In this document: piece by piece, positions 8,122 through 11,430 of the stretch
Numbering within the stretch: the first letter of the stretch is position 1
How the letters are laid out: each line of letters opens with the position of its first letter
Source: Candidatus Cloacimonadota bacterium
Lineage (GTDB): Bacteria > Cloacimonadota > Cloacimonadia > Cloacimonadales > JAMOQM01
Length of the DNA stretch: 51,736 nt
Direction: 5' to 3'
Assembly: GCA_027064005.1 (NCBI GenBank)
Contig: JAMOQM010000051.1
Location: 1 to 51,736 of the forward strand
Program-made: the position numbers and the translations under genes
Notes under the pieces: model-generated
Seen by the model: the letters and a program-made list of their open reading frames with translations, nothing else
What the model was told of the DNA's origin: nothing
The model's database searches: none

Positions 8122-8275
8122 TTAAAGAATATTTAAAAACTTTGGATAACAAATTACCACTATTAAGAATTTGTTCTTTAGAAAAAAATTTTATTAAGTC
8201 TATAGATAATCCTAAATAAACTGCTTTTTTGAACCATGGTTTATTTTCCCAATACATCCAAATATTTTTATTCAT
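8102..8275 (-). pseudogene. 57-codon remnant with capsular-synthesis glycosyltransferase N-terminus
   Basis: An ATG at 8275 overlaps the stop of the downstream-most AAA/nuclease gene (TAATG) and opens a 57-codon frame. Its first residues, MNKNIWMYWENKPW, match the opening of DXD-type Caps_synth/Gly_transf_sug glycosyltransferases (IW.YWE), which are normally 250-350 aa. The rest of the frame has none of the domain's later motifs and ends inside the start of the next gene. It is most simply a gene that lost its interior; a genuine small protein is less likely. The first 15 bases recur after the other AAA/nuclease copy (9854-9868). Confidence 0.45.
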
Positions 8276-9843
8276 TAGACAAACACCGCCGTAATTTTCT
8301 TTGAAATTCCTTCCACAACTTTGGTCTCAAATTTCTTATTTTTATTGAAATTATAAATCAACATGTATCCCTCGTTCAAACCATAAGAATCCAAATAATC
8401 ACATAATTGCTCAATCCCATCGGAAAGATATTTTTCTCCATACCAAATTTTGAGTTCTATAACATATCTTTTGTCATTATAAGTTATGACCAAATCCATT
8501 TTTCGGTCTTCAGCGGTAACATTTTCTTTAAATAAAAATCCCTTCCCGTTAATAATTGGACGTAAAAATGACATCAATAATAATCGCCCGTTTTTTTCTA
8601 AAAATTTATTATCCTTGGAAGAATTATGTTCCTTCATAAATAGCTGAAATTTTTGTAAGATTAAGACAATGTTCAATTCATTATTTTCCGTAAATTTGGA
8701 AGAATTATATAAGTTTAAAGCCGATTCATTGGTTTTCTGTTTAGACAACATATAATCAATTATTCTAAATTCATATATTTTGTTACTTATATCACACTGC
8801 CCTGTTTTATTTTGAGAGAGAATGCCATAAATTTTCCCCTTATTAATTATTGGATCTCCAATGTTGAATCTATAATTTTCACCTTGAATTACAATATTAA
8901 AAACAAGATTATATAAATCATTATTATTTTCTAAATTTTTAGTTACATCATCAAAATTCGTGTTTGTATAAGCTCCATCAATTAAATACTTATATGCATT
9001 TTCCACATCATCAACAGTCCACGGCCGTTTATTTTCTCGTAAAATATTTTCATCGATAATCTTCCCCATTTGACTGATAAGAAAAGGATTACCGTTTGTA
9101 TAATAAAAAATTCTTTGAGCTATTTCGGAAATATTCATCAGGAAATTATGTTCATCAGCATAATCTTTTAGCATCGGAATAATTTCATCAACAGAAAACG
9201 CAAAATCAATTTCTAAATTCTCGGCAATATTCCACGGACTATTTAATTTTCTTTCCGCATCCGGACGTAATTTCAATTTTAAAGATTTTACATCGTGAAC
9301 CCCGAGAAGAATAACCGAATGAAAAGTAAGATCGTTTTCACTTTTCATCGCAAGATATTTATCTCTTAAAATTGCGAGAAAACTTATAAATACTTGATTA
9401 TTACTGGCTTTATCGACTTCATCAATTATTAAGACAACTTTCTTTTTTACTGAAGAAATCCACGTTGCAACAAATCTAGATAACTCTTTAAAACTGTGAA
9501 TGTTTCCGGCAGCTTCTTCCAGAAAATCAGCAAGTTTAGGTTGTTTAAAAAATAAACCTTTTGCAAATGTTTCTAAGACAGCCGGAGCAAATCTTTCTTC
9601 CGATTCAAAAGGGAGGTCGCCAATTCCTTCAAAACTAGTGGAAATTACCAGATAATCTTCTCGCTTTTCAAATTCTTTCTTCAAAAGATATTGCATCGTT
9701 GTTTTTCCAAATTGTCGCGGGAAATTTATAGCATAATAATATCCTTCTTCCACAAGATATTTACAGCGTGCAAATTTTTTCGAGACATCACACATATAAT
9801 GTTTTTCCGGAATACACAAACCGGTTGTATTAAATCTTTTCAT
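8275..9843 (-). CDS. AAA-ATPase / PD-(D/E)XK nuclease protein, copy A
   Basis: A 522-aa protein of the multicopy AAA_35/AAA-ATPase-like plus PD-(D/E)XK family common in Bacteroidetes, spirochaetes and related anaerobes. The N-terminus MKRFNTTGLCIPEKHYM is a family signature. Walker A-like RQFGKTT is near residue 45, Walker B VVLIIDEVDKA near 140. The C-terminal nuclease core shows RKMDLVITYNDKRYVIELKIW, i.e. the D...(E)xK catalytic pair. The biological role of the family is unknown; recombination, conflict or mobile-element functions have been proposed. It is preceded by AGAGGGAGAA and ATG. Residues 1-284 and about 397-522 equal copy B, while the middle differs completely at DNA level. It is a cargo-type insertion in the glycan cluster. 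Confidence 0.85.
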   Translation of the reverse strand: MKRFNTTGLCIPEKHYMCDVSKKFARCKYLVEEGYYYAINFPRQFGKTTMQYLLKKEFEKREDYLVISTSFEGIGDLPFESEERFAPAVLETFAKGLFFKQPKLADFLEEAAGNIHSFKELSRFVATWISSVKKKVVLIIDEVDKASNNQVFISFLAILRDKYLAMKSENDLTFHSVILLGVHDVKSLKLKLRPDAERKLNSPWNIAENLEIDFAFSVDEIIPMLKDYADEHNFLMNISEIAQRIFYYTNGNPFLISQMGKIIDENILRENKRPWTVDDVENAYKYLIDGAYTNTNFDDVTKNLENNNDLYNLVFNIVIQGENYRFNIGDPIINKGKIYGILSQNKTGQCDISNKIYEFRIIDYMLSKQKTNESALNLYNSSKFTENNELNIVLILQKFQLFMKEHNSSKDNKFLEKNGRLLLMSFLRPIINGKGFLFKENVTAEDRKMDLVITYNDKRYVIELKIWYGEKYLSDGIEQLCDYLDSYGLNEGYMLIYNFNKNKKFETKVVEGISKKITAVFV

Positions 9844-9867
9844 TTCTCCCTCTAATATTTTTATTCA

Positions 9868-11430
9868 TTAGACAAACACCGCCGTAATTTTCTTTGAAAT
9901 TCCTTCCACAACTTTGGTCTCAAATTTCTTATTTTTATTGAAATTATAAATCAACATGTATCCCTCGTTCAAACCATAAGAATCCAAATAATCACATAAT
10001 TGCTCAATCCCATCGGAAAGATATTTTTCTCCATACCAAATTTTGAGTTCTATAACATATCTTTTGTCATTATAAGTTATGACCAAATCCATTTTTCGGT
10101 CTTCAGCGGTAACATTTTCTTTAAATAAAAATCCCTTCCCGTTAATGATTGGACGTAAAAATGACATCAATAATAATCGCCCGTTTTTTTCTAAAAATTT
10201 ATTATCTTTGGAAGAATTATGCTCCTTCATAAATAGCTGAAATTTTTTTAAAATAGTTAAAACATCCAATTTACCGTTCTTTATAAATCTTGCTGAAGTA
10301 TATTTCTCTCCGGGAGATGTTCTCGCTTTAGAAAGCAAATAATTTAAAATTCTGAACTCATATATTTTATTACTGATATCACATTGTCCATCAATGTTTT
10401 GTGAAAGAATACCATAAGTTTTACCTTTAATAATTACCGGATCTCCTAAATCAAAAGGAAAAATTTCACCTTCAATAACTATTCTCTCGGTTACTTTTCT
10501 CAAATCGGAATTGTTTTCCAAATTTTTATACATATCATCAAAATTGGTCGTTGTATAGCCAAGATTAATAATATATTTATATGCATTTTCCACATCATCA
10601 ACAGTCCACGGCCGTTTATTTTCTCGTAAAATATTTTCATCGATAATCTTCCCCATTTGACTGATAAGAAAAGGATTACCGTTTGTATAATAAAAAATTC
10701 TTTGAGCTATTTCGGAAATATTCATCAGGAAATTATGTTCATCAGCATAATCTTTTAGCATCGGAATAATTTCATCAACAGAAAACGCAAAATCAATTTC
10801 TAAATTCTCGGCAATATTCCACGGACTATTTAATTTTCTTTCCGCATCCGGACGTAATTTCAATTTTAAAGATTTTACATCGTGAACCCCGAGAAGAATA
10901 ACCGAATGAAAAGTAAGATCGTTTTCACTTTTCATCGCAAGATATTTATCTCTTAAAATTGCGAGAAAACTTATAAATACTTGATTATTACTGGCTTTAT
11001 CGACTTCATCAATTATTAAGACAACTTTCTTTTTTACTGAAGAAATCCACGTTGCAACAAATCTAGATAACTCTTTAAAACTGTGAATGTTTCCGGCAGC
11101 TTCTTCCAGAAAATCAGCAAGTTTAGGTTGTTTAAAAAATAAACCTTTTGCAAATGTTTCTAAGACAGCCGGAGCAAATCTTTCTTCCGATTCAAAAGGG
11201 AGGTCGCCAATTCCTTCAAAACTAGTGGAAATTACCAGATAATCTTCTCGCTTTTCAAATTCTTTCTTCAAAAGATATTGCATCGTTGTTTTTCCAAATT
11301 GTCGCGGGAAATTTATAGCATAATAATATCCTTCTTCCACAAGATATTTACAGCGTGCAAATTTTTTCGAGACATCACACATATAATGTTTTTCCGGAAT
11401 ACACAAACCGGTTGTATTAAATCTTTTCAT
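9868..11430 (-). CDS. AAA-ATPase / PD-(D/E)XK nuclease protein, copy B
   Basis: A 520-aa tandem paralogue of the next gene downstream, 24 bp away. It has the same RQFGKTT Walker A, LIIDEVDKA Walker B and MDLVITYNDKRYVIELK nuclease core. Copy B starts 20 bp after the stop of the GT2 gene and has its own ribosome binding site (CGGAGTAATA). After its stop come 15 bases (ATGAATAAAAATATT) identical to those that follow copy A, so the duplication unit ran slightly past the gene end. The central segment, about residues 285-394, is only moderately similar to that of copy A although short anchors such as KTYGILSQN and GQCDISNKIYEFRI are shared, which suggests the same fold with a changed surface. Confidence 0.85.
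   Translation of the reverse strand: MKRFNTTGLCIPEKHYMCDVSKKFARCKYLVEEGYYYAINFPRQFGKTTMQYLLKKEFEKREDYLVISTSFEGIGDLPFESEERFAPAVLETFAKGLFFKQPKLADFLEEAAGNIHSFKELSRFVATWISSVKKKVVLIIDEVDKASNNQVFISFLAILRDKYLAMKSENDLTFHSVILLGVHDVKSLKLKLRPDAERKLNSPWNIAENLEIDFAFSVDEIIPMLKDYADEHNFLMNISEIAQRIFYYTNGNPFLISQMGKIIDENILRENKRPWTVDDVENAYKYIINLGYTTTNFDDMYKNLENNSDLRKVTERIVIEGEIFPFDLGDPVIIKGKTYGILSQNIDGQCDISNKIYEFRILNYLLSKARTSPGEKYTSARFIKNGKLDVLTILKKFQLFMKEHNSSKDNKFLEKNGRLLLMSFLRPIINGKGFLFKENVTAEDRKMDLVITYNDKRYVIELKIWYGEKYLSDGIEQLCDYLDSYGLNEGYMLIYNFNKNKKFETKVVEGISKKITAVFV

Follow-up and report, generated by a model that had tools for sequence, protein, structure and literature searches.

The tandem pair

How do two neighbouring genes come to be identical at both ends and strongly different in between? 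The window analysed here, a stretch of 51,736 nucleotides from a Candidatus Cloacimonadota bacterium, raises this question with a pair on its reverse strand: gene A (9868–11430, 520 residues) and its tandem paralog, gene B (8275–9843, 522 residues). Both are intact and encode an AAA+ ATPase at the N-terminus and a PD-(D/E)XK nuclease at the C-terminus (AAA_35/DUF1703-like). All of the features of the pair given below lie on the reverse strand.

The 5' arms (10577–11430 in A and 8990–9843 in B), which encode the ATPase core and most of the lid, are identical over 854 nt, with no difference up to codon 285. The 3' arms (9868–10247 and 8275–8654), which encode the nuclease domain and include the stop codon, differ at only three of their 380 nt; the changes (ATC/ATT, AAA/AAG and GAG/GAA, at 280, 340 and 355 nt from the end) are all synonymous and lie near the inner edge. 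A further 14 nt, TGAATAAAAATATT, are found downstream of both stop codons (9854–9867 after A and 8261–8274 after B). Between the arms lies a variable cassette, V2, of 329 nt in A (10248–10576, approximately residues 285–395) and 335 nt in B (8655–8989), a net length difference of 6 nt that keeps the frame. Here the nucleotide identity is about 65% overall (54–78% per 50 nt window) and the amino-acid identity is 59%, and along the gene the identity steps sharply from 100% to 58% and back to 100%. The preliminary description had reported an identical 5' end of 854 bp, a nearly identical 3' end of about 390 bp, which we find as the 380 nt with three differences plus the 14 nt past the stop, and a diverged centre of 330 bp; the comparison confirms this mosaic as correctly observed.

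More than 100 differences separate A and B and all except three are packed into about one fifth of the gene, which is not chance clustering. In the centre dS is about 1.5, with silent sites saturated; outside it dS is about 0.04 or less, a value that counts differences just past the cassette edge. A second region of interest, V1 (11026–11235 in A and 9439–9648 in B, approximately residues 66–135), lies between Walker A and Walker B and is identical in the two genes. B starts 24 nt downstream of the stop codon of A, and the junction reads as stop, 14 nt, a ribosome site (AGAGGGAGAA) and ATG.

Protein identity and motifs

The catalytic motifs are complete in gene A: Walker A is RQFGKTT, Walker B is LIIDE and the nuclease residues are D448, E461-x-K463 and Q477. 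In both proteins Walker A stands in the context F-P-R-Q-F-G-K-T-T, an unusual type that is seen in DUF1703 proteins. Across 33 homologs R43, G46, K47, D141, E142, D448 and K463 are invariant (A numbering), and E461 and Q477 nearly so.

A matches Pfam AAA_35 (PF14516) with 33.8 bits against a gathering score of 27, and eight of ten close homologs match it at E ≤ 0.01. B is absent from these matches despite an ATPase part identical to that of A, which is probably an effect of the HMMER filter. For AAA-ATPase_like (PF09820) the scores of A and B, 26.0 and 25.0 bits, lie just under the gathering cut-off of 26.1. Neither protein matches PDDEXK_9 (PF08011) at E ≤ 1, a family weakly matched by one copy from Pseudanabaena; their C-terminus matches PDDEXK_3 weakly (E = 0.009). 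A sequence-profile search gave no convincing relative of solved structure (best E = 0.07). From its sequence, which in relatives carries the pattern ...LGL...DG...IANPIY..., the middle region would probably be a linker with a winged-helix-like fold that joins the ATPase to the nuclease. Assignment as a PADLOC defence protein is not supported; the only match was to PDC-S54 (E = 2e-5), and defence genes are not enriched around the Lachnospiraceae copies described below.

Mosaics in other genomes

The preliminary description proposed to look for centres exchanged among copies elsewhere, and these were found. Genome G016, from the same order as the window genome, has 26 family matches. The identity between two of its copies, L116 and L117, is mostly 92–98% along the backbone, 45–80% in V2 and 70–80% in V1, while L117 and L119 are 95–100% identical in V2; L122 resembles L121 in its N-terminal part and L120 in V2. 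Permutation tests on triplets gave p = 0.0002 and placed the starts of the exchanged tracts at residues 283 and 287, which coincides with the position at which A and B part (285). Four contigs of this genome (C56, C5, C161 and C102) end within family copies, and both the number of copies and the mosaics that it really contains can therefore be resolved only in part.

V1 can be exchanged as well, which the A/B pair conceals because V1 is identical there. In a Planctomycetota-labelled MAG two tandem copies, L035 followed by L034, differ over residues 60–180 and are identical at the start of V2 and at the 3' end, with a contig break inside the identical stretch. This pair is the complement of A/B, in that V1 is the part that differs; the same is true of the L127/L128 pair.

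A further case comes from eight Pseudanabaena copies (L135–L142), whose identity to A is about 25%. Within a backbone that is 82–89% identical, V1 occurs in four types and V2 in three, in crosswise combinations; L138 and L139, for example, have the same V1 and a different V2. Distances in V1 show no correlation with those in V2 (r = 0.10, Mantel p = 0.29), the data of each region reject the tree of the other (AU p < 1e-9), and V1 and V2 assort independently in this group. Most cases outside Pseudanabaena come from fragmented MAGs, in which repeats are open to mis-joining; the Pseudanabaena copies lie on closed plasmids, which settles the assembly question for the family.

Recent mosaics are not universal. 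Two Lachnospiraceae genomes, G128 and G129, hold more than 20 copies each without any, and the L133/L134 pair diverges evenly along its length, so exchange is active in some lineages only. Whether other copies diverge evenly, a question raised at the outset, has a divided answer: they do in these two genomes and this pair, and they are mosaic in G016 and Pseudanabaena.

Origin of the diverged centre

Trees of V2 reject the monophyly of A and B (AU p = 0.005) and accept A with L034, from the Planctomycetota-labelled MAG, and B with L033, from a Victivallales-labelled MAG. From this discordance we infer that the V2 cassettes of A and B are older than the pair. With saturated silent sites confined to the centre, the result upholds the earlier contention that plain duplication followed by drift cannot produce such a pattern.

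Faster mutation or positive selection in V1 and V2 was considered and is ruled out by ten ortholog pairs from two Lachnospiraceae species. In these dN/dS is 0.13 for V1, 0.12 for V2 and 0.13 for the rest, and the dS values are similar (0.13, 0.085 and 0.085). Both regions are under ordinary purifying selection and change no faster than the rest under vertical descent, so that the difference must come from recombination. Over all members of the A-like family, conservation is also lowest in V1 and V2, whose variability may come in part from weak constraint.

We consider it probable that the V2 cassettes of A and B descend from distinct lineages of old age, that outside V2 the two genes were a single sequence until recently, and that V1 and V2, as putative recognition modules, are exchanged by homologous recombination. 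Recombination within the conserved frame would swap V1 and V2 between copies, with paralogs, plasmid copies or horizontally acquired genes as possible partners. At the A/B locus the gene would have been duplicated and one copy then given a different V2. The ribosome site of B is not copied from the sequence upstream of A, so that the tandem did not arise by a plain duplication that included the flanks. Crossing over between the 5' arms would be expected to leave a single gene with the V2 of B, and between the 3' arms one with the V2 of A.

The preliminary description left a choice between ends homogenised by gene conversion and a replaced centre. Cassette exchange has gained support from the other genomes, and A and B taken alone fit both. 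On the former account the two genes would be old tandem paralogs whose ends were repeatedly homogenised, with conversion halted at the diverged centre by insufficient homology and the centre left over rather than imported. The identical tracts stop where homology would (at the start codon, 14 nt past the stop and at the edges of the diverged block), and the tandem L126 pair, with 69–93% identity in the N-terminal part and 50–70% in V2 and the C-terminal part, resembles a one-sided tract. We nevertheless judge this account rather unlikely. In the L116/L117/L119 trio of G016 the backbone dS is 0.23–0.28 compared with 0.17 for the V2 shared by L117 and L119, as expected if the V2 of L116 was replaced; the backbone being about as old as the shared V2, replacement is favoured over homogenised ends. 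Neither would homogenisation of ends alone give the crosswise sharing of V1 and V2 among Pseudanabaena plasmids. An assembly artefact, in which two strains or copies were fused into a spurious tandem and their arms duplicated, seems very improbable to us. The assembly is MAG-like, in 153 contigs, and in relatives contig breaks and an N gap fall at the same repeats; however, the junction of A and B is clean and has its own ribosome site, for which a chimera of single-copy strains would need a source, and mosaics are also found in closed plasmids and as a tandem in another MAG. Slight differences between the arms of A and B could have been smoothed out by the assembler.

Putative function of V1 and V2

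If cassette exchange is taken as the source of the mosaics, the diversity of the family is seated in two blocks open to exchange: V1 lies within the ATPase, and V2 links it to the nuclease. V1, a putatively helical segment that separates Walker A from Walker B, and V2 may serve in recognition and determine what the ATPase senses or with which partner it assembles, with the nuclease as the putative effector. Possible targets are DNA that invades the cell, a competing element or a partner within the cell. Since A and B each have a ribosome site within one operon, both variants are probably made together. We put forward tentatively, as a possible but doubtful extension, that this is a widespread stand-alone ATPase–nuclease family with a two-module recognition code, in which V1 and V2 are exchanged independently, so that the tandem, dispersed and plasmid-borne copies would make up a combinatorial repertoire against targets or rivals. 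The map of V1 and V2 shows where swaps should be made in experiments and so renders the question of recognition testable. If the cassettes do set specificity, the family would be an example, beyond restriction systems, of specificity exchanged in modules.

V1 and V2 might instead be modules of oligomerization specificity that insulate paralogs from mixed rings or dimers and have no part in target recognition. AAA+ subunits often touch through the ATPase module, where V1 sits; as many as 38 matches to the family, intact and partial ones together, occur in a single genome, and the near-identical A and B proteins would probably be present together. Insulation is a serious rival to recognition, even if we hold it to be unlikely. 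That V1 and V2 assort independently is no obvious expectation for a single interface whose two sides have to match. A role in phage defence, with the gene diversified through an arms race, is plausible and without support from the neighbourhood; we think that it is possible, though with less than even chances. The match to the candidate PDC-S54 noted above is weak and covers about 70 residues of the nuclease end; one Pseudanabaena copy adjoins the DISARM gene drmA and another adjoins cas6, and RdrA is among the defence proteins for which PF09820 is listed (PMC10952713). On the other side, the neighbours of about 20 Lachnospiraceae copies gave fewer defence-type matches than control stretches of the same contigs, the loci of the window copies and of the copies closest to them are concerned with glycan biosynthesis, and dN/dS is low in V1 and V2.

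Comparison with known systems

DUF1703 (PMC1913061), whose members consist of an AAA+ module, a helical region of small size and a nuclease, is the nearest described family. Like A and B, these proteins (PF09820 plus PDDEXK_9, PF08011) carry a Walker A of the form R-P-R-x-x-G-K, a middle region and a C-terminal PD-(D/E)XK domain, and both families are multicopy in some genomes. They differ in that A and B fall just under the PF09820 cut-off and lack a PF08011 match, and A passes the AAA_35 threshold instead. Recombination among DUF1703 paralogs, detected with RDP4 and PHI, has been described in Cardinium cCpun and a midge Rickettsia, in which the family is expanded, in a paper whose main text gives no tract positions and no V1/V2 cassettes (PMC6387759). 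According to that main text no homogenization of the Cardinium paralogs is apparent, whereas the arms of A and B are identical. Paralog recombination of this kind is thus known; a localization to two exchangeable cassettes in an AAA_35/DUF1703-like family was not found in the literature searched on the family and related systems, which lay mostly outside subscription journals.

The suggested analogy to the S subunits of type I restriction systems (hsdS) holds for the exchange of variable modules; homology is not supported. Both have two variable regions in a conserved frame that are brought into new combinations by recombination, but the V1/V2 family is one polypeptide with its own ATPase and nuclease. 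No TRD family is found among the Pfam matches of A and B, and no methylase or HsdR among the scanned neighbours. The TRDs of S subunits shift between positions at flanking repeats (PMC3077401), a kind of repeat not noted beside V1 or V2. The likeness would be one of behaviour and not of descent. Rpn (recombination-promoting nuclease, YhgA-like) proteins are likewise PD-(D/E)XK proteins that have a conserved and a highly variable part, and recombination has been suspected in them (PMC10327210). They share dispersed and duplicated copies with the A/B family; their variable part, however, is the C-terminal domain, of which a separate product also exists that serves as an antitoxin, whereas V1 and V2 are internal and both ends are conserved.

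Genomic context and mobility

The window copies and all of their closest relatives lie in surface-glycan loci. The locus in the window comprises an ABC transporter, a glycosyltransferase, A, B and a glycerophosphotransferase, and the scanned neighbours include no methylase. The same locus is present in another Candidatus Cloacimonadota MAG of the same order (G004), with an ABC transporter, one copy (L038) and a glycerophosphotransferase; in this single copy (L009/L038) the sequence is replaced by Ns for about 100 bases, precisely where its centre and nuclease would be expected. L035 comes after dTDP-sugar genes and L033 lies among glycosyltransferases. In Lachnospiraceae the copies are dispersed between housekeeping genes; no partner gene is conserved beside them, and defence genes are no more frequent there than in control stretches. 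The protein therefore probably works alone.

The window genome (2.40 Mb in 153 contigs, listed as 100% complete) contains no third full copy and no donor of either V2. It holds two fragments with short open frames, one with the end of V2 and the nuclease (C27:60181–60702, 45% identity) and one with the N-terminal 70 residues (C108:35981–36190, 57% identity).

A transposable element or self-mobile unit was considered and rejected, since a scan of 60 copies gave no general flanking repeat or target-site duplication. Only L033 had a long direct repeat; the others were mostly within or near the control range, and L126, second in the scan, lies in its own tandem array. No relatives of the family were found in phages or in IMG/VR. 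Upstream leaders are common to the Pseudanabaena copies and to L116 and L117, from which it appears that copies spread together with their promoter regions; no termini were found. In Pseudanabaena the leader is conserved and AT-rich and extends for about 170 nt upstream of the start codon. A tyrosine recombinase adjoins or is close to some of these copies, and two strains carry the family on four plasmids each, mostly with one copy per plasmid.

Two minor observations concern neighbouring glycosyltransferase genes. The direct repeat of about 50 bp that flanks L033 (3587–3641 and 5407–5461 of that locus) corresponds to the beginning of the glycosyltransferase gene downstream, which looks as though the insertion had restored it. 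In the window an ORF of 57 residues (MNKNIWMYWENKPW...; 8122–8274, reverse strand) lies between B and the glycerophosphotransferase; it opens with the 14 nt that recur after A and resembles a shortened capsule glycosyltransferase.
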